Source of the DNA: Lysobacterales bacterium
GTDB lineage: Bacteria; Pseudomonadota; Gammaproteobacteria; Xanthomonadales; SZUA-36
DNA length: 36,701 nt
NCBI GenBank assembly: GCA_013042835.1
Contig: JABDPJ010000226.1
Span: 1-36,701, forward strand
Direction: 5' to 3'
The notes below the pieces were generated by a model. That model made no database searches. It was not told the origin of the DNA and saw only the letters and a list, made by a program, of their open reading frames with translations. Shown piece by piece: positions 5,438-18,388 of this stretch (positions within the stretch are counted from its first letter, which is position 1; each line of letters starts with the position of its first letter). Made by a program: the position numbers and the translations under genes.

Positions 5438-6718
5438 TCAGATTCCTGCAACCGGATGGCTTGGCGGCAAGTGGGTTTTGTCCTTTCTCTTGCGCTTGCC
5501 TTTGCTCATCGCCTGGTTAACCAATGCCAGCACGGCACCGCATACCATCAGGAAAGAGGCGATATAGAAAGCCATGTCTTCCTTACCGGTAATATCTTTA
5601 ACCATGCCGGCGATGCGCGGCAGGATCAGTCCGCCGACACCCCAGGCAGTGAACATGACGCCGTAATTGAGGCCGAATGACCTGAGACCGAAATTGTCCT
5701 TGGTTGCTGACGGGAACAGCGTCAGGTTGGCCCCGTAGCAAGCGCCGATAAACAACACTGCAACCATTAACGCGAGGGCGTTGTTACCAAAATACAAGGG
5801 CACCAGCACCATCACGCTTTGCAATAGGAATGCAAAGAACAATGTCATTTGTCGGCCGATCTTATCGGAAACCACCCCTGCCAGGACGCGTCCGCCGGCG
5901 TTGCCGACTGACAACACCACGACCGCGTAGAAAGCAGCCTCACCGAGCGATGCCTTGGCCATGCTGGCAGCCGAGCCGATGACCAGCAAGCCGGCAGCAG
6001 CGCCAAATACGTACATGGTCCAGAACATCCAGAAAGTGGACGTGCGGATCATCTGGTGCCAGTCCATATCGACCGGCGGTTTGGCGGCAGCTATGTGTGT
6101 TGGCCGCAAATGGGCTTTCGGATCGACCGGTTTGTAGTCGGCGGGCGGATTACGTAACAATTGCGCGAGACTTACCACGATGATGAGAAACGCGATGCCA
6201 AAGATGATCATGGTTTTTGATACGCCATAAGCACCCAGCAACGCTTGTGCCGTCGGTGCGATATAAACCGACGCAAGGCCAAAACCGGCAACCACCAGGC
6301 CCGCAATCAGGCCGGTTTGAGATGCCGGAAACCACTTGACCGCGGCCGGTGTTGCCGCCGCATAACCAAAACCGATACCAATCCCGCCAAATATGCCAAA
6401 ACCAACGACGAAACCCAGGTAACTGGAACCTGCCAGCCCGGCTATGATGCAACCGAGCGCGACTGAAATGCCGCCTATCGTAGCGACCCAGCGCGGGCCG
6501 ATTCTATCCTGCAGGCGTCCTGCCGGGATCATGGCAAGGGCGAACACGAAACAGGCGATCGCATAAGGATCTGATTTTTGGGCTGCGGTCCATCCCCATT
6601 CAATGGGAATTGCCGCTTTGATGACTGACCAGGTGTAGAGAACTCCGAGGGCGAGATTGATTCCGGTACCCGCAAAAGTTACTCGCCATCCTTTATTGGG
6701 TGATATTGACTGTGTCAT
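5438..6718 (-). CDS. MFS transporter, OxlT (oxalate/formate antiporter)-like
   Basis: 426 aa, about 12 membrane segments. N-terminal 'GVLYTWSVIKAAIP', the loop 'AGRLQDRIGPRW' after TM2 and 'GGIGIGFGYAAATPAAVKWFP' match the OxlT branch of the major facilitator superfamily. Its members exchange small carboxylates such as oxalate, formate and pyruvate. The second half carries 'GVVSDKIGRQMT'. The start at 6718 has AAGGAG about nine bases upstream, so the 20-residue extension in the ORF track is not used. The tail is very basic (KGKRKRKDK). It is divergent from malic enzyme, which suggests a C4-dicarboxylate or pyruvate substrate. The family is certain and the substrate inferred. Confidence 0.88.
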   Translation of the reverse strand: MTQSISPNKGWRVTFAGTGINLALGVLYTWSVIKAAIPIEWGWTAAQKSDPYAIACFVFALAMIPAGRLQDRIGPRWVATIGGISVALGCIIAGLAGSSYLGFVVGFGIFGGIGIGFGYAAATPAAVKWFPASQTGLIAGLVVAGFGLASVYIAPTAQALLGAYGVSKTMIIFGIAFLIIVVSLAQLLRNPPADYKPVDPKAHLRPTHIAAAKPPVDMDWHQMIRTSTFWMFWTMYVFGAAAGLLVIGSAASMAKASLGEAAFYAVVVLSVGNAGGRVLAGVVSDKIGRQMTLFFAFLLQSVMVLVPLYFGNNALALMVAVLFIGACYGANLTLFPSATKDNFGLRSFGLNYGVMFTAWGVGGLILPRIAGMVKDITGKEDMAFYIASFLMVCGAVLALVNQAMSKGKRKRKDKTHLPPSHPVAGI

Positions 6719-7169
6719 TCGGACCGACTCCTTCGTATCTGTCAAGGCAAAAAGCCATGAACTTTTCAGAAAACTCAACAGACCTTGAATTCCCGTTTGG
6801 GCGTCCTGAATCCGTGAGTTTTATCGATTTCAGCGAATGATTGATATTCCAGGCATACTCCTATCTGATTCCAATATTAAAAAACTTGTATCCTATTGTT
6901 TACAAACGATTAAAATACAAAGTAAAACCTTGTTTGGAGACGACAATTTTAACATCTATTCAACCACTTAGCCTGCTTTGCTAAACGCTTTAGGAGCCTT
7001 TGTTGACACAGGTCAATTCAGAGCGCTTCTGTTCCATTATTCATTCTGACGCGTCAACTAAAATGGTATTATTGGATTTCACCGGGACGTGGCGGTTTAT
7101 CGTGCCCGCCCGTTTGCCAGGTTCGGATTTTGAGCAAACCAACGCTTGCTAATTTCACAGGAAACCACC
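6719..7169. other. Divergent promoter region between MFS and malic enzyme genes
   Basis: 451 bp without a credible gene. It is AT-rich around 6860-6960. It holds an FNR-like palindrome at 7003-7016 and a possible promoter TTCTGA (7044-7049), 17-bp spacer, TATTAT (7067-7072) pointing to malic enzyme. No RNA gene was recognised. Confidence 0.5.
7003..7016 (+). promoter_or_regulatory. FNR/CRP-family palindrome TTGAC-N4-GTCAA
   Basis: TTGACACAGGTCAA is a perfect inverted repeat with the half-site spacing of FNR boxes and a C/G change at the fifth position of each half. It is about 150 bp before malic enzyme and 285 bp before the MFS gene. No strong -10 lies at class II spacing. Relative to the TATTAT at 7067 its centre would be near -70, a class I position. 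Confidence 0.45.
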
Positions 7170-8813
7170 ATGAACGACTCTGAACTTTCCCCGATGCACC
7201 GCGGTGTAAAAATTCTCCATGATCCCATTCGAAACAAGGGCACCGCGTTCACTGAAGCGGACCGGAAGGTCCTGAACCTGACCGGATTGTTACCGCCACG
7301 CGTCCATTCCGCGGCGGAACAGGAATTGCGTGTACTGGGCAATATCCGCGATAAACCCACCGACCTGGCACGTTACCTTTACCTGATATCGCTGCAGGAT
7401 CGCAACGAGACGCTCTTCTATCGCGTGGTCATGAATAACATTGAAGAGATGATGCCGTTGATTTACACGCCGACCGTCGGTGCGGCATGCCAGGAATTCC
7501 AGCATATTTACCGTCGGCCACGGGGCTTTTACATCTCGTCGCGGGAACGTGGTCATGTGAAGGAAGTGCTGCAAAACTGGCCACATAAAAATGCCCGCAT
7601 CATCGTCATAACCGATGGCGAAAGAATCCTCGGCCTGGGTGATCTCGGGGCCGATGGCATGGGTATCCCCATCGGCAAATTGTCGCTGTATACCGCCTGC
7701 GCAGGATTTCACCCGACAGAGTGCCTGCCGGTCATGCTGGACGTGGGCACGAACAATGAAGCCCTGTTGAATGACCCGCTTTACAACGGTCTGGAGCAAC
7801 ACCGCGAACGCGGAGAAGCATATGATGCCCTGCTGGACGAATTTATCCAGGCGGCACGGGAGACCTTCCCGGGCGTGCTGATCCAGTTCGAAGACTTCGG
7901 CAACACCAATGCTTTCCGTCTGCTGGACAAGTACCGTAACAAGATCAATTGCTTTAACGATGATATCCAGGGAACGGGTGCGGTGGCCATGGCCGGCATT
8001 ATCGGTGCGTTACGCATCACGGGTGAAAAACTGGCTGATCAGCGACTGTTGTTCCTCGGCGCGGGCGAAGCCGGGATCGGCACTGCCGATACCTTTGTCG
8101 CCGCGCTGGTTGAGGAGGGTATGAAGGTTGAGGAAGCTCGCAAGCAGTGTTGCTTCTTCGACACCCAGGGCCTGCTCACTTCAAAACGTGAAAAGATCGC
8201 CGATCACAAGCAGCGCTTTGCGAGGGACCTTCCGCAAATGGACGACTTCCTCGAAGTCGTGAAAATATGGAAACCCACGGCGATTCTGGGACTCTCTGGC
8301 CAGCCCGGAAGCTTCCCCAGGGAAGTGATCGAAACCATGGCCAAGATCAACAAGCGCCCGATCATCTTTGCGCTGTCCAATCCGACCTCGAAAGCGGAAT
8401 GTACAGCCGAGGAAGCTTATCGCTGGAGCAAGGGCCGGGCCATCTTCGCCAGTGGCAGTCCCTTCGATGCCGTCAAGCTCGGCAACAAAACTCTCGTGCC
8501 GGGCCAGGGAAATAACGTCTACATTTTTCCCGGTGTGGGCCTCGGAGCTGTCGTGAGCCGCAGCAGCCGGGTCACCGACGCCATGTTTCTTGCCGCGACT
8601 CACGCCCTGGCCAACCTGGTCAGTGAGTCAGACCTTGCCTTGGGATGTGTTTACCCACCGCTTTCCCGGATTCGCGAAGTATCGGCAAAGATTGCATACG
8701 AGGTCGCCCGAATTGCCTTTGATACGGGTCTTGCCCAATGTGAAGAACCTGAAGACCTGATGGCTGATATACGCTCCCGCATGTACCAGCCCATCTACCC
8801 GCATTACGCCTGA
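7170..8813 (+). CDS. maeA: NAD-dependent malic enzyme (large, MaeA/SfcA type)
   Basis: 547 aa. Converts malate to pyruvate and CO2 with reduction of NAD(P). Motifs in order: 'YTPTVGAACQEF', 'GLGDLGADGMGIPIGKL', the metal-binding 'FEDFGNTNAFRLL' and 'FNDDIQGTGAVAMAG', the dinucleotide fold 'FLGAGEAGIGTAD', and 'FALSNPTSKAECTAEEAY'. Length and motifs match the large bacterial and eukaryotic malic enzymes rather than the MaeB-phosphotransacetylase fusions. The start at 7170 follows CAGGAAACCACC; the track start at 7146 has no ribosome site. An FNR-like box lies upstream and a strong hairpin follows the stop. The enzyme could feed pyruvate to the 2-oxoacid network encoded at 22.9-32.5 kb. Confidence 0.94.
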   Translation: MNDSELSPMHRGVKILHDPIRNKGTAFTEADRKVLNLTGLLPPRVHSAAEQELRVLGNIRDKPTDLARYLYLISLQDRNETLFYRVVMNNIEEMMPLIYTPTVGAACQEFQHIYRRPRGFYISSRERGHVKEVLQNWPHKNARIIVITDGERILGLGDLGADGMGIPIGKLSLYTACAGFHPTECLPVMLDVGTNNEALLNDPLYNGLEQHRERGEAYDALLDEFIQAARETFPGVLIQFEDFGNTNAFRLLDKYRNKINCFNDDIQGTGAVAMAGIIGALRITGEKLADQRLLFLGAGEAGIGTADTFVAALVEEGMKVEEARKQCCFFDTQGLLTSKREKIADHKQRFARDLPQMDDFLEVVKIWKPTAILGLSGQPGSFPREVIETMAKINKRPIIFALSNPTSKAECTAEEAYRWSKGRAIFASGSPFDAVKLGNKTLVPGQGNNVYIFPGVGLGAVVSRSSRVTDAMFLAATHALANLVSESDLALGCVYPPLSRIREVSAKIAYEVARIAFDTGLAQCEEPEDLMADIRSRMYQPIYPHYA

Positions 8814-8828
8814 CTCGGCAAGCAAACT

Positions 8829-8854
8829 CCCGGTCATCGAAACCGATGGCCGGG
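8829..8854 (+). terminator. Terminator-like hairpin after malic enzyme
   Basis: CCCGGTCATCG (8829-8839) pairs with CGATGGCCGGG (8844-8854) around an AAAC loop. This gives an 11-bp stem with one G-U pair, 15 bases after the malic enzyme stop. A TTTTT run lies about 20 bases later. The site is between convergent genes. Confidence 0.6.
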
Positions 8855-8889
8855 TTCAAACCCAGAGAGTTCGTTTTTGATGCCTGGTA

Positions 8890-9891
8890 TCAGGGCCGCA
8901 CGCTGTTAAGCCCGACAAAACTGCCGCCGTTGTCCTCAGCCAGTTTTCTCATCAACGCCGCGTAACGTACGGCATTGATGGACAGGCGGCTGCCGCCAAA
9001 CTGCACCGGAAACCCCACGGTATGGATACGCACCCGGCGATTACCGGAACTGTCGGCACGGTTGAGCCGCTCCACCGTGTCGACCACGGCCTGGATGGAA
9101 CCGCTGGCAAAATCATCTCCAAGGACGTAGAGGCTGATTTTCTTGTCCTTCGAGTAAAAACGTCGTATGGCGGCCTCGATGCCCTCCACCGGGCTGGAAT
9201 TGGAAAAGGGGAACCAACTCGAGAGCCGCCTGACAATGGCCTCACGGCGGGCTGGCGTATCGGGAATCCACTGTCCCCTGTACTGCGAGTACATGTAGTC
9301 ACCCATGTCGTTCATGACCTGGATACCCTTGACGCGTGGATAAATTTCAAGGATTTCCTGAACTTTTCTCAACACCATGCTCCAGGCGCCCTGTCCCATG
9401 GAACCGGAAGTGTCAATGATGAACATGATATATTCGCTGTCCACAGGAACCCCGCCAATCGGGCTGTCCGGCGTCCGCCGGACGCTCAGACCAGACAGCC
9501 GTTTGACCTCCTCACTGAGGGTTTGCTGAGCCACCGCCAACTGGTTTTCAATGATGGTCTGCGCCTCGTGCTCATTGCGCGTGGCGTCGTGTTCCCCGCG
9601 CACCAGTGACAGATCGCCTTTGAGGCGTGCCAGTTTTTCCCGGTGCCGGGAAAGCTGCTCCTGTTGCTCCGTCAGGTCGCGGTTCAACACGGTGGTTTCA
9701 CCACGGATACGGTAAATTTCAAGCTCCAGCCGCTGAACCAGCCCGGTGAGGTCGACCGCCAGCTTTTCGATCACGCGAGGTTCGGATATCTGGATGATGA
9801 CCAGCAGCAGGATAATCGCGCCAAAACCACAGGAGACCACGTCGAGAAATGACATGTTGAAAATATCCACCTCACGACGGCGCTTGCTCAC
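8890..9891 (-). CDS. VWA-domain protein with TolR/ExbD-like anchor (second of pair)
   Basis: 333 aa. A basic N-terminus (MSKRRRE) leads into one membrane span carrying 'SFLDVVSCGFGAIILLL', with Asp17 placed like the proton-carrying Asp of TolR/ExbD ('LLDVLLVLL'). A coiled coil follows (about 45-135), then a periplasmic VWA domain (about 150-330). The MIDAS starts with DTSGS (160-164); Ser replaces the usual Thr in 'SNSSPVEG', and 'LGDDFASGS' carries the later Asp. It overlaps the stop of the first VWA gene by 4 bp (ATGA) and is the last gene of the eight-gene operon. I infer that it pairs with the TolQ/MotA-like protein as a plug or stator subunit, possibly as a heterodimer with the other VWA protein. 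Confidence 0.85.
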   Translation of the reverse strand: MSKRRREVDIFNMSFLDVVSCGFGAIILLLVIIQISEPRVIEKLAVDLTGLVQRLELEIYRIRGETTVLNRDLTEQQEQLSRHREKLARLKGDLSLVRGEHDATRNEHEAQTIIENQLAVAQQTLSEEVKRLSGLSVRRTPDSPIGGVPVDSEYIMFIIDTSGSMGQGAWSMVLRKVQEILEIYPRVKGIQVMNDMGDYMYSQYRGQWIPDTPARREAIVRRLSSWFPFSNSSPVEGIEAAIRRFYSKDKKISLYVLGDDFASGSIQAVVDTVERLNRADSSGNRRVRIHTVGFPVQFGGSRLSINAVRYAALMRKLAEDNGGSFVGLNSVRP

Positions 9892-10979
9892 GGCCAGTCC
9901 CTCGACGGCGTCAGGAAAGAACCGCTGCTTTGAATCGCCAGTTGCCAGAATGCGGCTGCAGCCCAGGCGTCCCCTTCCATCGGCAGCAGAATGGTATTGA
10001 CCGGGATTTTCGCATCCAGCACACGGACCGCCTTTTCGAAGTGGTCAAGCCGTTTGTCCGACGATACCGTCGTTGACAGGGGTTTGCTGCGCCCCTGGGT
10101 GGGCAGGCCGTCAGTAATCAACAGGATGTTATCCGGTCTCGGCTGCAGTGCCTTGACCACCGAAAATGCATGATAAAGACTCGTTCCACCGGCCGGGGCG
10201 AGCTCACGTAAGGCATTGACGGCGCCATCCACGTCGGTACGGGTGGAAGCCTGCAGCCACTTGCCATCGGAACCTGCAAGCGCCGGCCTGGCTGCGGTGT
10301 TAAAAGTGTAAAGCTGGAACTGCGACGTGGCAGGCAGGTTGCTGACCAGCCAATCCGCAGTTTTCAGAGCCCGCTGCCACTTGGGTGCGTTCTTGCGGCT
10401 GGCGTCACTCATGTTGCGGCGCCGGATGATATTGATGATGGTCTCATCCAGCATGCTCGCGGATGCGTCCATCAGGATCAGGATGCGCTCTCCGCCCATC
10501 TTCAGGCCGGTCAGGTACTGGCGGTCACCTTCACCCTTGAACTCGCGTACTTTTTCACCGGCATCGCGGTCGGCAGGCGCCACCGCACCGAGGCGTTTCT
10601 TCTGCTCATCCAGTGACTTCAGGTCGGTGCTCAACTGGTTGATGTGTGCGCGATTTGCCAAGGTCTCCCTGGACATCTGCGCAATTTCAATCTCGAGGTC
10701 TTCGATCGTATTGATGACGCGTTCCGACTGGCCCTGCATCAGGACAATTTCCTTCTCGGTGGCCTGCAGGCTGTTGCGCGCCTCAACCAGGTCCTCTTCA
10801 CCGATGAGTACCTCCTTTTCAAGGCGCACGGTTTCCGCACGCAGATCTGTGAATACCTCGTTGCGTGTTTTTACCGTGTCATGATTGAGAATCAGCACCA
10901 GCAATACCACGGCGCCGAAACCGCAGAACATGATGTCGAGAAAAGACAGTGAAAAGGGTGTGACTTTGCGGCGTGGCAT
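9888..10979 (-). CDS. VWA-domain protein with TolR/ExbD-like anchor (first of pair)
   Basis: 363 aa. Starts MPRRK, then one membrane span containing 'SFLDIMFCGFGAVVLLVLIL' with Asp15 in the TolR/ExbD position. A long coiled coil spans about 38-130. The VWA domain (about 160-355) has a complete MIDAS: DASAS (171-175), Thr266 in 'GGTSLYHAF' and Asp290 in 'LLITDGLPT'. The complete MIDAS predicts Mg2+-dependent ligand binding in the periplasm, while the partner VWA is slightly altered. The gene begins 17 bp after the TolQ-like gene and overlaps the next by 4 bp. The N-terminal block is nearly the same as in the second VWA protein, which suggests an old duplication. Function unknown. Confidence 0.86.
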   Translation of the reverse strand: MPRRKVTPFSLSFLDIMFCGFGAVVLLVLILNHDTVKTRNEVFTDLRAETVRLEKEVLIGEEDLVEARNSLQATEKEIVLMQGQSERVINTIEDLEIEIAQMSRETLANRAHINQLSTDLKSLDEQKKRLGAVAPADRDAGEKVREFKGEGDRQYLTGLKMGGERILILMDASASMLDETIINIIRRRNMSDASRKNAPKWQRALKTADWLVSNLPATSQFQLYTFNTAARPALAGSDGKWLQASTRTDVDGAVNALRELAPAGGTSLYHAFSVVKALQPRPDNILLITDGLPTQGRSKPLSTTVSSDKRLDHFEKAVRVLDAKIPVNTILLPMEGDAWAAAAFWQLAIQSSGSFLTPSRDWP

Positions 10980-10996
10980 GACAGTGCTTGGATTAC

Positions 10997-11791
10997 CTAG
11001 CTTTTCAGTCGACGGATCAGCCAGCTGTCGACGTAGCGCTCGCTATCGAGCACCAGGCGCTCCTGCATCAGCTGGACCTGGTGCACAAAGAACATCAGCA
11101 CAATGCTGATCACCAGGGCAATGAAGGTCGAGTTGAATGCAACACCGAGGCTTGCGGTCACCCCGGTGATGTCACCCTCAACCGCGCGGTGGGCCTGCCC
11201 CAGCGCGTTGCCAATGCCGCGCACTGTGCCGATAAAACCGACCGACGGAATGGCCCAGGCGATATAGCGGATAATCGACAACTCTGATTCCATCCGTTCA
11301 CCTTCAGATTCACAGACGTCGCGGGCCGCCGTGGAAACGTCCTGGACATTGCGGGTCGCGCCAAAGCGCTCGATTGCGGTCAGCAGCGCCCGTGGCAATA
11401 ACCATCCCTCGGCCTGGCCCGGCAATGCCGCCACCCGTTTTGCGATTTCGCGGGTATCCTCCGGCCCGATGGGTAATCCCCCGGGTAACTGCAGCAGGTC
11501 TTCACCAAGCAGCTTCTGTTGCCGGTACACCTCCCTGCCCTTGTAACCGAGTATGGAGAAAGCCCACAGCATCAGCACGAAGCAGGTCTCCTGCTCAAAA
11601 TCCTTAATAACGACAAAGAAGGAGCGCTGTGGAACGTAGTCGGGATCAGCCTGTACATAAGCAGTTTCCTGCTCGATAAAATCACGCGCCTGGGGGCGTA
11701 CCAGAGTGACGTAGACGGCGTGCACCACGATAAAAGCGATGAGCAGTGAAAAAACATGGAAGACCAGTTCTGTGGGAAAGTTTTTCTTCAT
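10997..11791 (-). CDS. MotA/TolQ/ExbB-family proton channel protein
   Basis: 264 aa. Membrane segments lie at about 10-31, 67-83, 174-192 and 212-237. The last two form the MotA_ExbB core, with 'AIPSVGFIGTVRGIGNALG' and 'GVTASLGVAFNSTFIALVIS'. These match the TolQ/ExbB pore helices that use the proton motive force. The periplasmic loop (about 32-66) is longer than in TolQ. The next two genes carry TolR/ExbD-like anchors, so the three are predicted to form one inner-membrane motor. ATG at 11791; the previous gene ends 9 bp away. The channel assignment is strong; what it powers is unknown. Confidence 0.9.
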   Translation of the reverse strand: MKKNFPTELVFHVFSLLIAFIVVHAVYVTLVRPQARDFIEQETAYVQADPDYVPQRSFFVVIKDFEQETCFVLMLWAFSILGYKGREVYRQQKLLGEDLLQLPGGLPIGPEDTREIAKRVAALPGQAEGWLLPRALLTAIERFGATRNVQDVSTAARDVCESEGERMESELSIIRYIAWAIPSVGFIGTVRGIGNALGQAHRAVEGDITGVTASLGVAFNSTFIALVISIVLMFFVHQVQLMQERLVLDSERYVDSWLIRRLKS

Positions 11792-11800
11792 TTTTTGCCG

Positions 11801-12091
11801 CTAAATGTCGATGGGGAACGCTACTGCGCTGTCGGCTCCAATTTGCTCGGAGGGTTTGAATTCCTTGACCGTATCAGTCCCGGCCTCACCGGCGTCTTGC
11901 TGTTTTTTGGCGGCATCGGACTTTTCATCCACAGGCGCTTGCTTGACCGCCTCCGGTGGAGCCTGGACCTGCTCAGGGTTTTGATTGTCGGCACCGGTCA
12001 GCACCGGCATCAGGAAGACTGTCAGGAGCAATGCCAGCGCTGAGGGCAGTAACAGGAAAGGCCTGGCGTATTTGGGTTTATTTGTCTGCAT
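11801..12091 (-). CDS. Small single-span protein with Pro/Glu/Gln-rich tail
   Basis: 96 aa. One membrane helix (about 11-32) is followed by a disordered periplasmic stretch rich in Pro, Glu, Gln, Lys and Ala, ending in the more ordered 'GADSAVAFPIDI'. The ATG at 12091 has AGGA about eight bases upstream; the track's TTG at 12100 is less likely. It overlaps the end of the PEGA/FGE gene by 14 bp and precedes the TolQ-like gene by 9 bp, so it is translationally coupled in the operon. The flexible linker with a short C-terminal motif suggests a tether or peptide ligand. I do not recognise the family. Confidence 0.65.
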   Translation of the reverse strand: MQTNKPKYARPFLLLPSALALLLTVFLMPVLTGADNQNPEQVQAPPEAVKQAPVDEKSDAAKKQQDAGEAGTDTVKEFKPSEQIGADSAVAFPIDI

Positions 12092-14486
12092 ATCGTGCAA
12101 TCCTGAAGCCTAGGTTGTCACGCGGCCCGCGACTGTAATCGCGGTAACTTAAGCGCAACTCGGTAATACTGCCATCTCGCCAACTGGATCCGCGTACGAC
12201 ATGGTGGTCGCCAACAGCGGGGCCGGCGGGATCCGTCACCAGCCTGTCTGACTGGCCCGGGTAGACCGCATAAAAATCATTGGTCCATTCAGCCACGTTG
12301 CCGCCAAGGTCATGGAAACCCTCCGGTTGCGCGCTGAAACTGCCCACCGGCGCGGAACTGCGGTAACCATCATTATAGCCCTTCACGATGTTTGCCAAGG
12401 TGTCAGCAATCTGCGCATCTGCAAAATTACCCGTAACGGCCTTGGGCGGGTAACCCTCACCCCACGGATAGCGCGCCGCGCCGCTGCGGCCTGAGACGCG
12501 TGCTGCGTACACCCACTCCGCTTCTGTCGGCAGGCGGTAGCCATTGGTTGCAGACGGCAGCGCCTCCATGCGGCCATCCTTTTCACCATAAGCCGGATTC
12601 AGCTTATCCTGCTCGCTCAGCCAGTTGCAGTATCGCGCGGCATCATCCCAACTGACATTGACCACTGGCTGCCGGTCACCGTCAAGTGACACTCCCTCCG
12701 CGGTACCGGACCGGTGCTTACTGTCAAAGCGCCGGAATTCGGCATTGCTCACCTCCCGGCTTGACAGGTAATACGGCCGGGTGAGTTCGACCAGGCGCTG
12801 GCTTTCGTTGGCGCGCCGGCCGGCTTCGCGCCTCGAGGCCCCCATTTGAAACGTTCCAGACGGTTCCAGCAATCGCATTTCCTGCCCGCCGGCGGTCTTT
12901 AACACGGCCGGCCGCGCCTCTTCCTTGACCTGCACCACGGTGTTCAACGCCACATCAACGTTCTGGCTGGTCGCAGTTCGCGGAGTCACCGTCACAGTTT
13001 GCGGCACGTAACCCGGTTTGCTGAACACCAGTTCATGCGGGCGCGTGGTCAGCCTTAAACGCTGGGTGCCGCTGCCGGAACGTTTACCATCCACCGTCAG
13101 ACTCGCATCTGCTGGTATTGAACTCGCGAACACGATGCCGTATTCCGGGGTCAGGTCCACCTGCAGTTCCTTGCGTTCATCCGGCTCGAGGCTGATGGTC
13201 CGTCTGGCAACGCCGTAACCCGGCTTGTTCAATATAAGTTCATGTGGCGTGCCGGAAGCCAGCGTAACGGCGACCGGCGTAGTGCCATGGAAATTGCCGC
13301 CGATGCTCACGGTGGCGCCTTGTGGCCGCGTCTCCAGGGCGAGCGTGCCATCGTTCGGTTCCAGGATGATTCTGTCCAGCTCGACCGGGGTGCCGGCCAC
13401 GAAACTTGCAAGCATGCGCCGGGATTTGAAGCCGGCAAGAGACAGTTCGATTTCCCGCTGACCCTGGATGATCTCCGTGACCAGCGGCGTTTGGCCCACC
13501 GGCTCGCCATCTATATTGACCTGCGCAGTCTCCGGTTCGCTTGTTATAAAAACCTCTGCCCACGCCGGTTGCAGTGCAAGTTGCAGCGCCTGGAGCTCGC
13601 CAAACCCGGCTATTTCCAGCTCCCGGCTCTCGGCCAGGTAACGATCGGTTTCTATCAACAACTCGTAGGTTCCCCGCTGCAGGGAAATGATGTTGTCGCG
13701 CTCAACCGGCAGCTCTGCATCAGCCACAGAGACCCTGACCGGCACGGATGGATCAACCATGATCTGCAAACGACCCGGCAATTCCTCCAACTCAAAATCG
13801 AAAGCCCGGAAACCGCCGGATGACACTTCAAAGCTTTGCCGCAAAGGCTGGTAACCGGCCAGCTCAGCCTCGACGGTATAGGTGCCCGGAACGACCAGCA
13901 TCCTCGACCCGAACGAAACCGCGGGCGGAAATCCGCTGACGGACTGGTCATCTGGCTCAGGGTTGATATTTATGGCCACCGGCGTGGCGAAGATGACAAA
14001 CACGGCGATCAGCGCCAGCAGGCTAAAAAGCGCGAGCAACAGGTAGCGAAGCCTGCGCCGCTTGACGGCTGGCATCGGGTTTGAATTAACCGGGATTACC
14101 CTGGTCGTCTCATCTTCCTCAGGGTCTGGCGGCGGCTCGGCCGGTGGTTGCAATTCCAGTTCGTCACGGCTGTCCCCGACCTTGATGAATACCTGGTCGC
14201 CCTTGATGTCCCACTTCAGAAGCCAGTCGCCCAGTTGCACCCTGTCACCGGATTTCAGCCAGGCGGAGGTATCGATGAACTCATGGTTGTGGAACAACTC
14301 GACATCCGCGTCAGCCGGCTGCAGATAGGCATGGCCATCGGCAAGGGCAATATGAGCCACGACCGTCCCGGCGGGAAGACCCGGCAGGCTGATGTCCGCT
14401 CCGGCACCGCCGATGGCCAGCGGAAAGTCCGCCGCTTCAACACGCCGGACACCGCTCACAGTGTCGATAAAGAAGACCCGCCTCAT
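12078..14486 (-). CDS. FHA-like / PEGA-repeat / FGE (SUMF1)-like membrane protein
   Basis: 802 aa. Domains in order: an FHA-like cytoplasmic N-terminus (1-105, 'DRVQLGDWLLKWDI'), an acidic Pro-rich linker, KRRR then one membrane helix (147-167), about five PEGA-type repeats (about 170-510, each ending like 'ELVFSKPGYVPQTVTV'), and a formylglycine-generating-enzyme fold (about 535-800; 'GTFQMGAS', 'YRLPTEAEWVYAAR', 'LGGNVAEWTNDFY', 'VVRGSSW', 'NLGFRIAR'). The cysteines needed for FGE catalysis are absent: the 'RxRC' region reads LSYRDYSRG. It is therefore probably a binding or structural module. The gene overlaps the TPR gene by 4 bp. Positive residues before the helix place PEGA and FGE parts in the periplasm and the FHA-like part in the cytoplasm. 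Confidence 0.85.
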   Translation of the reverse strand: MRRVFFIDTVSGVRRVEAADFPLAIGGAGADISLPGLPAGTVVAHIALADGHAYLQPADADVELFHNHEFIDTSAWLKSGDRVQLGDWLLKWDIKGDQVFIKVGDSRDELELQPPAEPPPDPEEDETTRVIPVNSNPMPAVKRRRLRYLLLALFSLLALIAVFVIFATPVAININPEPDDQSVSGFPPAVSFGSRMLVVPGTYTVEAELAGYQPLRQSFEVSSGGFRAFDFELEELPGRLQIMVDPSVPVRVSVADAELPVERDNIISLQRGTYELLIETDRYLAESRELEIAGFGELQALQLALQPAWAEVFITSEPETAQVNIDGEPVGQTPLVTEIIQGQREIELSLAGFKSRRMLASFVAGTPVELDRIILEPNDGTLALETRPQGATVSIGGNFHGTTPVAVTLASGTPHELILNKPGYGVARRTISLEPDERKELQVDLTPEYGIVFASSIPADASLTVDGKRSGSGTQRLRLTTRPHELVFSKPGYVPQTVTVTPRTATSQNVDVALNTVVQVKEEARPAVLKTAGGQEMRLLEPSGTFQMGASRREAGRRANESQRLVELTRPYYLSSREVSNAEFRRFDSKHRSGTAEGVSLDGDRQPVVNVSWDDAARYCNWLSEQDKLNPAYGEKDGRMEALPSATNGYRLPTEAEWVYAARVSGRSGAARYPWGEGYPPKAVTGNFADAQIADTLANIVKGYNDGYRSSAPVGSFSAQPEGFHDLGGNVAEWTNDFYAVYPGQSDRLVTDPAGPAVGDHHVVRGSSWRDGSITELRLSYRDYSRGPRDNLGFRIARYADK

Positions 14487-15955
14487 ATCGGTTCCTCACA
14501 GCGGATAACCAGGACCGGCTGGTTCGAGCCGGGTTTGAGCGTAACCGTGCGGCGCACGTCACGGTAACCGGGCCTTGAGCCGATAATCGTGTAAGTGCCC
14601 GGCAGCAACTCCAGTTGCTGACTGGTGAACTGTCCGAGGCGGCCGATATGATAGATCAGAACCTGGGTCAGGCCATCAGATTTCAGCGTGATGTTTAACG
14701 GTATCCGGGCGTCGGCAAGCAGGCGCTTCAGGCGGCTGATCTTATCCGCAAGCAGGGGTTCCGAGACCGGTGCGGCGCCGGCCGCAGCAATTAACTCTTC
14801 TGCATTTAGCCTCGGTTCATCTGCAAACAACCGTTCCGGCCGCTCGAGATAGTGGTCGAATTGCCCGTGCAGGCGCACCCTGTCTTCCGCGAAGGCCTTG
14901 CCCTGGCTGGCAAAACCGGCCTGGGGCACTTTGGCCAGCACCTCCCGGTAGGTAGCGGCCGCCCCGCTCCAGTCTTCCTCGCGCTGCTGGCCAGCCGCCT
15001 TTTCGCGCTGGCCGTCCAGCCACAACCTCTGCCGGGTCTGCGCCAGCTGTTGCCGCGTGTTGCGCACCGCCTCGTCACCGGGCTTGAGGCCAGCAGCCTG
15101 GTTCAATGCCACCTCGGCTGCACTTATCCGCTCCTGATCCAACGCACTGAGTGCACGGCTCATTGCCTCCCGGAATGCGAGCTCCGTGATCTGATCACTG
15201 ACGCTATTCAGCGCTGATTCTGCCGGCCCATAGAATTCATCCAGCGCAAGCGCTTGCTGGAAAGCGTCCCGGGCGCCTGACAGGTCGCCGACGGACAGGG
15301 CCAACTCACCAGCCTCCATCCGGTTCAAAACGTCAGGCCGGGCCGTTGCGCGCTGCAAGCCGGCCAATGCGTCTTCATTGTCCGCTTCAATGGACAGGGC
15401 AAGCTCAAAATATGTCCCGGCTGCGCTGCTGTCACCGGCCTGCAGGGCCTGCCAACCCGAATTCAATGCAATCTGAAGGCGCTGCCCACGCTCAGACTCA
15501 AGCAAAACCAGCAGCGTTTTTGCACCTGACAGTACCTCGGCAGACTCGGCAAACCGGCGTTGTCCGAACAGTTCGTTACCGCTGGCTGAAGCGTCCAGTG
15601 CCCGGCTCCATTCCGGTTCGCCCCAGACCGGTGCATTGGCCAGTTCGAGACGGGCCTGAAGACGGAGAAAATCCTGCAGGGACTGCTCCGCGTCTGCCCG
15701 GGCATTCGCCGCCTGCTGTGCCTGCTGTTGAGGCGATACAGCCGCGACCGCCCCGGCCGCGTCCTGGCCAGCTCCGTCACGATCAGTGGACACCATTTTT
15801 GGCAATACCAGCAAGACGGCCAAACCGAGAGTAATGACAACTGCCAGCGCAGCCCAGATTAGGCCACGTCCACCTGTCCTGTCCGCAACGACCACATCGT
15901 CAGCGCCAGGAGGCCGAGACTCGAAACCGGGTTGACCTTGCTTGGGCGGTTCCAT
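14483..15955 (-). CDS. Membrane-anchored TPR-like protein with C-terminal PEGA domain
   Basis: 490 aa. A short cytoplasmic Pro-rich N-terminus, one membrane span (about 32-53), an Ala/Gln-rich linker, then a helical repeat region (about 90-345) with TPR-like units such as 'GDLSGARDAFQQALALDEFYG' and 'DSSAAGTYFELALSIEADNEDAL'. The C-terminus is a PEGA domain ('LLPGTYTIIGSRPGYRDVRRTV'), like those in the next gene. The ATG at 15955 with GGA five bases upstream is preferred to the TTG at 15964. It begins 13 bp after the lipoprotein gene and overlaps the next gene by 4 bp. Probable periplasmic scaffold that binds its PEGA/FGE partner or the cell wall; this is inferred. Confidence 0.8.
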   Translation of the reverse strand: MEPPKQGQPGFESRPPGADDVVVADRTGGRGLIWAALAVVITLGLAVLLVLPKMVSTDRDGAGQDAAGAVAAVSPQQQAQQAANARADAEQSLQDFLRLQARLELANAPVWGEPEWSRALDASASGNELFGQRRFAESAEVLSGAKTLLVLLESERGQRLQIALNSGWQALQAGDSSAAGTYFELALSIEADNEDALAGLQRATARPDVLNRMEAGELALSVGDLSGARDAFQQALALDEFYGPAESALNSVSDQITELAFREAMSRALSALDQERISAAEVALNQAAGLKPGDEAVRNTRQQLAQTRQRLWLDGQREKAAGQQREEDWSGAAATYREVLAKVPQAGFASQGKAFAEDRVRLHGQFDHYLERPERLFADEPRLNAEELIAAAGAAPVSEPLLADKISRLKRLLADARIPLNITLKSDGLTQVLIYHIGRLGQFTSQQLELLPGTYTIIGSRPGYRDVRRTVTLKPGSNQPVLVIRCEEPI

Positions 15956-15968
15956 GGGATCCAACAGC

Positions 15969-17165
15969 CTATTCGGCGACGGGTGGCAGACCGGTTTCTG
16001 TTGCGTAAATCTGCCTCATCAGTACTCGCCATTGTTCGTACTGGGCTTCGGCAGAGCCCGTCAATTCAATAGTCTCACCCTCGATCTCGAACACCAGTGG
16101 CCGGGTTTCGGACGAAAACGAAAGGCCCAGTTCCTCGATGGATTCGCGGTGTATGACTGCTTCAGAGCGCTTGTCCACACCCGACTTGATTGCCGCGGCG
16201 CCACCCAGAACCATGACATCGCTCAGTGTATCGAGCGCGGGGTCATAACCGTCACCCGCTGCAGCGACAAAAACTGCGCCGACGATCGACGCTACGCCCA
16301 GCAGGGTCCGGTTCAACGCGGCTTTCTCGAGCGCTCTTTGTTTCTCTGATTCATCACTGCGCGCCTTGCGCCACTCGGTATAGGGCTCCCGCATCTCGCG
16401 ATGGAAGTTATCAAAATGGCCATTCAGCGTATCGATCATCATCAGGTCGCGTTCCTTGATAGCCAGCACACGGCCATACATCGGATCATTCGAACTCGGC
16501 AGGTGAACAATGTCGAATTGACCCTCTTCATTGATGTCCAGGTAGCCCGAGAATGCATCGGGAGCAATGTTCGCAGCAAAGCGCAACTCTTCTATCCTGC
16601 GAATGGCCGTAATATCCTCGGGCGTTAAAGTCCTCAAAAACCTGGCAAGATCGTTGGCGACCGTGTTGTAGAGTGGTTGAAACGCGTCCCCGAAAAGCGG
16701 ATTGGCGCGGTAGAAAGAAGCCTCGACGCCATCGCGGTACTGCCTGGTGAACCATTGTCGGCCGCTTGCATCCCGGGCTGATATTTCAAGATCCAACTGC
16801 TCACCATTGGAGGCGATAATCCCGCCCGAGACCAGCAGTTCACCGCCACCGATGTCCCGTGGCACCACGCGCACTGCGCCCCAGTAGCCGGTTTTCTCCA
16901 TGGTGGCGCGCAATTCTTCCGGCATATAACGGGCCTCTGCCTCGCGGATGTCCATGGACAGGCCATTCGCCTTTTTCTCATTTTTTGGCAAAACGCCGGG
17001 GTCGAACACTTCAATCGATACATTGAGTAAGCGGTTCTCGGGAATTTCCGCCGCAGCCTTGTCAAGCGGCACGGCTTCTTCAATATTTCGACGCGGGCCC
17101 GTGCTGCTGCAGGCGATCAACAGTGATAACGACAGGATCGTCAATAAAAGAAAAAAATGTTTCAT
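15969..17165 (-). CDS. Outer-membrane lipoprotein of the VWA/TolQ-like operon
   Basis: 398 aa. A type II signal peptide 'LSLLIAC' gives a lipidated Cys19 followed by SS, so outer-membrane targeting is expected. The mature part has a first domain with beta-rich segments ('GELLVSGGIIASNGEQLDLEISA') and a later helical part with a charged 'REMREPYTEWRKARSDESEKQR' stretch. A hydrophobic segment follows (about 287-303, 'LLGVASIVGAVFVAAAG'). The overall pattern resembles lipoproteins in trans-envelope machines, but I recognise no named family. It follows the first operon gene by 10 bp and precedes the TPR-PEGA gene by 13 bp. It would be the outer-membrane end of the complex. Confidence 0.8.
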   Translation of the reverse strand: MKHFFLLLTILSLSLLIACSSTGPRRNIEEAVPLDKAAAEIPENRLLNVSIEVFDPGVLPKNEKKANGLSMDIREAEARYMPEELRATMEKTGYWGAVRVVPRDIGGGELLVSGGIIASNGEQLDLEISARDASGRQWFTRQYRDGVEASFYRANPLFGDAFQPLYNTVANDLARFLRTLTPEDITAIRRIEELRFAANIAPDAFSGYLDINEEGQFDIVHLPSSNDPMYGRVLAIKERDLMMIDTLNGHFDNFHREMREPYTEWRKARSDESEKQRALEKAALNRTLLGVASIVGAVFVAAAGDGYDPALDTLSDVMVLGGAAAIKSGVDKRSEAVIHRESIEELGLSFSSETRPLVFEIEGETIELTGSAEAQYEQWRVLMRQIYATETGLPPVAE

Positions 17166-17175
17166 GTGAGGTTTC

Positions 17176-18036
17176 TCAGCGAGTGCCCTGTTTGTACTTT
17201 CTATACTCTTCCCAGAGTTTTGCCTTCAGCTCGGGATCGGTTTCCTTTTCAGCCGCCTCGCGCAGCTGGCGGGCCACGACATCGTCATCGCTGCCGTCGG
17301 GAATATCCGCGGGCTGATCCTGGTCGTTGCCGGTATCGCCGGAGCCACTGCTGCTGTCGGACGGCCCTCCCGCGACCGCCCCCCCGGCATTGGCGCCGGT
17401 GCGGTCGCCGGTCGCAGTTTCACCTGAATCCCGGCTTTCGCCTTGTTCTGCGCCTTCGGTACCGTCGGCGTTCTCACCGGCACCCTCTGCGCCGGCACCC
17501 CCGCTTCCATCTCCGGACTCGCCGGATCCGGCGCCTCCGCCATCACCGGAATCTGAATTGTAGTTCGGCGTGTCTGCCTTGATCCGTTCCTGTTCCCGCA
17601 AAAGTTTTTCGTCGTAATCACCCAGGCCCTTGGCCAACTTCTCGTCTAGCGCTGCCACCTGCTCCTGCAGCGTCAGCTCCGACTGGGTGGCGATGTCTGC
17701 TGATTGCGTCACCGGCGGCAGGATGACCGGACATGGCAGGTCCTCTGGAAAAGGAGAACCTGACAGCATTACTGCCTGGCAATCTTCGAATACCCGCCGC
17801 TGCAACCTGGCGACGTAGGCCGCATAGTCGGCCGCCTGCGTTCCACTGAGCCCGTAAAGCTCCCGCTGCGTGCGATAGTCATCCTCCGCTGCCTGTAAAG
17901 CTGCATAATCGAGCCTCAGCTGCTCAACTGATTCCTCGGTAGCCGTCCAGGCAATGATGACCATCAACGACGCCGGCAGGATAACCAGCGAATTAAAGAG
18001 CCGCAGCGCGCTTTTCAATTTTTGGGACATAGGCAT
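17176..18036 (-). CDS. Single-span coiled-coil protein with Gly/Asp/Ser-rich region
   Basis: 286 aa from the ATG at 18036; a start at 18030 is equally possible. One membrane helix (about 14-31) is followed by a helical coiled-coil region with two cysteines (C86, C102), then about 90 residues rich in Gly, Asp, Ser, Glu and Thr (about 160-252), then a short charged helical tail ('AEKETDPELKAKLWEEYRKYK'). The ORF track extends to 18195, but that part has no membrane or helical pattern and no ribosome site. It is the first gene of the operon; the lipoprotein gene starts 10 bp later. Probably a periplasm-spanning linker; no family recognised. Confidence 0.7.
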   Translation of the reverse strand: MPMSQKLKSALRLFNSLVILPASLMVIIAWTATEESVEQLRLDYAALQAAEDDYRTQRELYGLSGTQAADYAAYVARLQRRVFEDCQAVMLSGSPFPEDLPCPVILPPVTQSADIATQSELTLQEQVAALDEKLAKGLGDYDEKLLREQERIKADTPNYNSDSGDGGGAGSGESGDGSGGAGAEGAGENADGTEGAEQGESRDSGETATGDRTGANAGGAVAGGPSDSSSGSGDTGNDQDQPADIPDGSDDDVVARQLREAAEKETDPELKAKLWEEYRKYKQGTR

Positions 18037-18388
18037 TTTACCGGGTGAATCGCATTCTTCCATTCTGATTATAGCGCCAGTGATTTGCCCCAGTTGTGAA
18101 CAATTGCAACAACTCCCGGCATGGTCAGCAGCGGGGCAAATCCGCAAAACGGGCAGTTTAACGAAGGAATATACACGCCGCGAGTGAATTTGCACTGAAC
18201 AGCGCCGTTGGTACGCTTGTCGACAGCAATGAATTCAAGCGTTTATTGAGTTATTTGACCTACATCATACAGCTTCACCTGCGAATGTGTTTTCCTAGGT
18301 ATGGACGCTCTTAAAGTTCAGTGCTGCAAATCCGCTTCACGATAAACACCTGCAACCCACCGAGCGTGCCTTACGTGGAGATATGGAA
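18037..18388. other. Divergent region between the envelope operon and secreted-protein gene
   Basis: 352 bp without a credible gene. It should contain promoters for both sides. The only clear element is the FNR-like palindrome at 18255-18268. Confidence 0.4.
18255..18268 (+). promoter_or_regulatory. FNR/ANR-like site upstream of the small secreted protein
   Basis: TTGACCTACATCAT matches TTGAT-N4-ATCAA in eight of ten positions. At class II spacing towards the plus-strand gene the hexamer is TTTCCT (18291-18296), a weak -10. Towards the minus-strand operon the corresponding hexamer is poorer. If functional it more likely serves the plus-strand gene. Confidence 0.4.

Follow-up and report, generated by a model that had tools for sequence, protein, structure and literature searches.

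A paired-VWA operon with a TolQ-like ring gene in a Lysobacterales genome: a member of the predicted TPH-vWA motor class

The TPH-vWA family is a predicted motor class described by Williams-Jones et al. 2025 (PMC12204202, section 8; Fig. 4c,d). In this family, membrane-tethered vWA proteins are encoded as heterologous pairs next to a tolQ-like gene, with no tolR/exbD; their transpore helix carries a conserved Asp, and AF3 models set both Asp residues inside a Thr ring (PMC12204202). Idiomarina loihiensis serves as the example organism. The same paper also describes a TonB/TolA-like vWA family, whose span contains a His as part of an SHLS motif and which co-occurs with tolR-like genes. The TPH-vWA class has so far been a prediction (2025): a literature search beyond this paper returned nothing further on the operon, and no experiment on any class member was found.

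Here we analyzed a stretch of 36,701 nucleotides (the window) from a Lysobacterales bacterium (GCA_013042835.1, contig JABDPJ010000226.1), in which two adjacent genes encode membrane-anchored VWA proteins. Matched on the features described in PMC12204202, the locus belongs to the TPH-vWA class. Since Williams-Jones et al. already predict such motors, this is membership of a known class. An earlier note on this DNA held that a heterodimeric plug carrying two different VWA heads would be a novelty for the motor class; section 8 of their paper already describes such a plug.

The two VWA proteins and their membrane Asp

The pair comprises the following features, the two genes overlapping by 4 nt:

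9888-10979, minus strand: VWA1, 363 aa; predicted N-in transpore helix with Asp15, helical stalk of ~100 residues, C-terminal VWA head
10887-10946, minus strand: VWA1 membrane span, residues 12-31, SFLDIMFCGFGAVVLLVLIL; Asp15 codon at 10935-10937
10455-10469, minus strand: VWA1 MIDAS DASAS (D171-S175)
8890-9891, minus strand: VWA2, 333 aa, GTG start; predicted transpore helix with Asp17, helical stalk of ~100 residues, VWA head
9793-9852, minus strand: VWA2 membrane span, residues 14-33, SFLDVVSCGFGAIILLLVII; Asp17 codon at 9841-9843
9400-9414, minus strand: VWA2 MIDAS DTSGS (D160-S164)

Re-reading of the two genes reproduced exactly the coordinates given in the earlier note and its placement of both Asp residues in a shared SFLD-x3-CGFGA motif, with Asp15 in the VWA1 anchor SFLDIMFCGFGAVVLL and Asp17 in the VWA2 anchor SFLDVVSCGFGAIILL. 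Both proteins have a basic N-terminus followed by one span, in which the Asp is the single charged residue; the strongest hydrophobic segments are residues 13-31 of VWA1 (Kyte-Doolittle 2.68) and 15-33 of VWA2 (2.66). A search with VWA1 recovered VWA2 (E 3.4e-8, residues 3-134), and the SFLD-x3-CGFGA likeness of the anchors goes beyond chance. The basic N-terminus suggests an N-in topology, in which the Asp of both VWA1 and VWA2 would lie close to where the single span leaves the cytoplasm.

The proposal of the earlier note turned on conservation of the Asp among homologs, and the residue proved invariant, being present in 89/89 distinct VWA1 spans and 90/90 distinct VWA2 spans. In these spans, Cys+4, Gly+7, and Ala+8 relative to the Asp are conserved at 96-100%, and no second charged residue was found from -6 to +16; a conserved His of the SHLS type was likewise not seen among the relatives' spans. 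The genome-collection scan, in which at least 565 of the 591 candidate stretches listed had VWA1 matches, is biased for VWA1 because its query was a peptide pattern that contains the Asp. Free of this bias are VWA2 in the genome-collection loci, a search of 61 genomes, and a class-wide search of 274 genomes. VWA1 matches were obtained in 24 of the 61 genomes, counting the source genome and one genome (G014) that matched solely via a diverged second-system pair, and VWA2-profile matches in 20 of the 274. In the class-wide sample, which is independent of the motif, the Asp is present in every VWA1 and VWA2 span inspected of the window-type system (system I). Weak span matches in three genomes (G073, G174, and G265) were set aside as probable chance. 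One contig titled as a Klebsiella pneumoniae MAG (L114) also has the system; it groups with an uncultured gammaproteobacterium (L107) and is probably a mislabelled bin. At two further loci (L158 4085-5098 and L159 7972-8985), the first ATG/GTG/TTG of the VWA1 frame falls within the span, and VWA1 may have a non-standard start codon there.

AF2 models and Foldseek matches both support a VWA fold for the two heads. The models place long helices ahead of the heads, with moderate confidence for the helices and low confidence near the spans (pLDDT <50 at VWA1 residues 1-37 and VWA2 residues 1-14). Together with the lack of a PF02472 match, this agrees with the description of the periplasmic domain in the earlier note as VWA instead of the TolR fold. 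That note had also assigned a full MIDAS to the first head and a modified one to the second. In VWA1, D171, S173, S175, T266, and D290 are each invariant (21 sequences). "Modified" is also correct for VWA2, if mildly so, because DxSxS (D160, S162, S164) and D259 are kept and a Ser (S232/S233) replaces the expected Thr. Of the two proteins, VWA1 alone passes the Pfam threshold for PF13519 (VWA_2). Neither VWA1 nor VWA2 has a Pfam match to an OmpA-type peptidoglycan-binding domain. PDB sequence searches with the TolQ-like protein, VWA1, VWA2, and the span profiles gave no meaningful relative; the matches were a chance one to a coiled coil and one to importin-5 at E 1.

Ring gene, operon partners, and a second system

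The remaining genes of the operon are as follows:

10997-11791, minus strand: TolQ/ExbB/MotA-like ring protein, 264 aa; PF01618 at 1.4e-14; pore threonines T189 (GTV) and T222 (FNST)
11801-12100, minus strand: small protein, 99 aa, one N-terminal hydrophobic segment; same operon as VWA1 and VWA2
12078-14486, minus strand: 802 aa; FHA-like cytoplasmic domain, TM (149-167), PEGA repeats, FGE/SUMF1-fold domain
14483-15964, minus strand: TM-anchored protein, 493 aa; TPR-like repeats, plus a weak PEGA match at the C-terminus
15969-17165, minus strand: predicted lipoprotein, 398 aa; lipobox LLIAC-S, identified by eye; kept in the operon
17176-18195, minus strand: exported protein; has a low-complexity linker and, at the C-terminus, the conserved helix DDVVARQLREAA..ETDPEL..KLWEEYRKYK; translation probably starts at the ATG near 18030

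The ring protein scores 54.4 bits against PF01618 (cut-off 22.9) and aligns by hhalign with the TolQ/ExbB proteins of the same genome (92.9%, E 3.6e-7). Its pore threonine motifs recur in 90/92 (GTV) and 87/92 (FNST) relatives, the search pattern giving no match in the rest. It also gave weak ZorA matches, with no membership of the ZorA/ZorB families. PADLOC matches are weak coiled-coil or ring matches and give no reason to assign the locus to a known defence system. No TolR/ExbD gene (PF02472) was matched in the operon at E <= 1. PF01618 matches eight genes in the genome; six of them lie away from VWA pairs and have an ExbD gene within about 0.7 kb, whereas the two that adjoin VWA pairs have none. 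An orphan ExbD gene (L163 1477-1881, on C298) could in principle serve the putative motor in trans; the stretch read around it contains no ring gene. It is flanked by a glmS-like gene and a gene with a TIR-type-like start, both named by eye.

This trans-envelope operon of 8-9 genes (lipoprotein, TPR, FHA-like/PEGA/FGE-fold, and an optional FHA gene) is conserved, and so, strongly, is its order: the exported low-complexity gene, then lipoprotein, TPR, FGE-fold, TolQ-like, VWA1, and VWA2. The LLIAC-S lipobox makes an outer-membrane site probable for the lipoprotein. Against TIGR03525 (GldK), the FGE-fold protein scores 107.6 bits, far under the curated cut-off of 350. Its FGE-fold domain may be non-catalytic, because the segment VRGSSWRDGSITELRLSYRDY, read by eye, is without Cys; non-catalytic FGE-fold domains are also known from GldK/GldJ.

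In about half of the relatives, TolQ and VWA1 are separated by an additional gene (for example, L043 7246-8517, L103 8580-10001, and L115 8632-10014), which is absent in the window, where 17 nt separate TolQ (10997) from VWA1 (10979). The N-terminal part of the extra protein was read by eye as ASKHA-like, with no Pfam support, and the C-terminus of the L103 protein is a Pfam FHA domain (3.8e-12). At loci that lack the extra gene and have an intact FGE-fold gene with a normal start, the membrane span of the FGE-fold protein lies at about residue 127-165, which leaves room for an N-terminal domain; this domain and the FHA-type C-terminus found in the extra proteins match at 91.8%.

A second, diverged VWA pair was found in the same genome (L156, on C201; 5668-14400). 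It lies beside a TolQ gene and keeps the Asp, with spans of the form SAIDLFASA[LM]GAF, and its second head has lost the MIDAS (DMNKY). The coordinates on that contig are:

5668-6597: VWA-a
6594-7532: VWA-b
7659-8105: FHA
8127-8873: TolQ-like
8834-10381: FHA protein
10372-12822: Ser/Thr kinase plus FGE-fold
12838-14400: low-complexity protein with repeated VSQNAMEF motifs

A putative two-subunit plug and competing readings

We consider it probable that VWA1 and VWA2 are the two subunits of the plug (stalk) in a proton-driven 5:2 motor, with the adjacent TolQ-like protein as its ring. A TolR/ExbD-like role of the Asp is well supported by its position, conservation, and context: the Asp is invariant, the topology would be N-in, the ring has both pore threonines, and the operon has no ExbD. 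The earlier note's comparison of the Asp with that of TolR and ExbD thus stands on context. Homology of the spans, in contrast, is not statistically significant: a profile-profile comparison with TolR/ExbD set Asp on Asp with a probability of 1.6% and E 0.03 over 13 columns.

In such a motor, the N-terminal spans of VWA1 and VWA2 would occupy the lumen of the TolQ-like pentamer, where Asp15 and Asp17 would be protonated in alternation against T189 and T222 of the ring, turning the plug. The helices of ~100 residues (some 15 nm long, taking 1.5 A per residue) would act as a periplasmic shaft that bears two different VWA heads toward the peptidoglycan or outer membrane, and the heads might pull on or bind partners, of which the operon lipoprotein and the PEGA/TPR/FGE-fold proteins are likely ones. 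The machine would probably be regulated by the cytoplasmic FHA-like domain, carried here by the FGE-fold protein or, in relatives, by the extra FHA-bearing protein. Rotation, partner coupling, and regulation are proposed by analogy with established 5:2 motor biology.

Solved plugs of the TolR/ExbD/MotB type are homodimers, and two motor populations, one of a ring with two VWA1 and another of a ring with two VWA2, could be envisaged on that model. An unrooted tree lends this some weight by splitting the pair of the second system (system II) from the system-I pair, each as a pair, and the pairing may therefore have arisen twice. We nevertheless regard homodimeric plugs as unlikely: nearly all relatives have the VWA1 and VWA2 genes side by side, mostly overlapping, and a single ring gene, the paired clades persist over four phyla, and a full-MIDAS head is accompanied by an altered head in both systems (window and C201). 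In the tree, VWA1 and VWA2 form two separate supported clades, spanning Pseudomonadota, Acidobacteriota, Thermodesulfobacteriota, and Myxococcota. The spacing from the VWA1 stop to the VWA2 Asp codon is 45-59 nt in 79 of 97 loci (the tightest main distance class), so the two genes overlap or abut. The distance from Asp to MIDAS is also near constant (142-156 in VWA1 and 136-145 in VWA2; n=97 each). The separate clades across four phyla, the mostly overlapping or abutting genes, and this near-fixed distance favour, but do not prove, a heterodimeric plug of one VWA1 and one VWA2.

Two further readings would take the VWA proteins out of the ring. They might be TonB/TolA-like transducers, the true plug being an ExbD/TolR protein encoded elsewhere, for which the orphan ExbD gene on C298 and the existence of another vWA family of that type (PMC12204202) could be cited. 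That family, however, has the SHLS His and tolR-like genes, whereas the proteins here have an invariant Asp and no conserved His, and an ExbD-family gene is absent from the operon; we consider this reading improbable. It appears highly improbable that they are a motor-independent membrane-anchored pair like BatA/BatB, with a structural Asp and the TolQ gene as a bystander: wherever a locus extends upstream of VWA1, a TolQ-like gene is nearly always there, and the second diverged pair (C201) is likewise beside one. BatB and an aerotolerance-related protein are among the Foldseek VWA matches (3ibs, 4jdu), which would speak for such a pair, but they stand amid many generic VWA matches.

Beyond the two-subunit plug in a ring, we raise, tentatively and with more doubt than confidence, the reading that the locus encodes a phospho-regulated, trans-envelope rotary machine in a class of its own. 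Its plug would be an asymmetric, obligate pair of VWA1 and VWA2 (a head with full MIDAS and an altered one) turned by the TolQ-like ring, with cytoplasmic gating by FHA-bearing parts and a pull on the outer-membrane lipoprotein via the PEGA/FGE-fold proteins.

Significance and comparison with known systems

If the motor reading is true, heads of a metal-binding type would replace the usual periplasmic domains on a proton-driven ring, and each plug would combine two different subunits. The locus and its relatives add a defined operon, the residues D15, D17, T189, and T222, partner genes missing from the published account, and cultured carriers, by which the class prediction becomes testable. 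Among the cultured carriers are Pseudohalioglobus lutimaris (L125), P. sediminis (L122), Pseudohongiella sp. O18 (L132), and Geothermobacter hydrogeniphilus (L091). Also beyond that account are the conservation of the 8-9-gene operon and, within this one genome, the second system with its kinase and FHA links. The text of PMC12204202 contains none of the terms formylglycine, PEGA, kinase, sulfatase, and GldK, and its one "FHA" match is FhaC; the wider operon thus appears undescribed in the main text of that paper.

With the TPH-vWA family, the locus shares membrane-tethered VWA proteins in heterologous pairs, the adjacent tolQ-like gene, the absence of tolR/exbD, the span Asp, and the lack of the SHLS His; FGE-fold, PEGA, FHA, and kinase partners go unmentioned in the paper text (PMC12204202). 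Like TolQR/ExbBD, it has a PF01618 ring with GTV and a second pore Thr, and N-in single-span partners with one membrane Asp, but a ~100-residue helix and VWA head take the place of the TolR/ExbD fold, PF02472 is absent, and there are two plug genes. In GldKLMN (the T9SS/gliding motor), a ring gene also adjoins an FGE-fold partner and a long periplasmic shaft is present; here, in contrast, the FGE-fold protein is anchored in the inner membrane and is no lipoprotein, its GldK score is below the cut-off, and the plug heads are VWA. MotAB/ZorAB share the ring-plus-plug motor logic, and the ring protein gave weak ZorA matches, whereas the VWA proteins have no OmpA-type peptidoglycan-binding match and the locus has no ZorA/ZorB membership.
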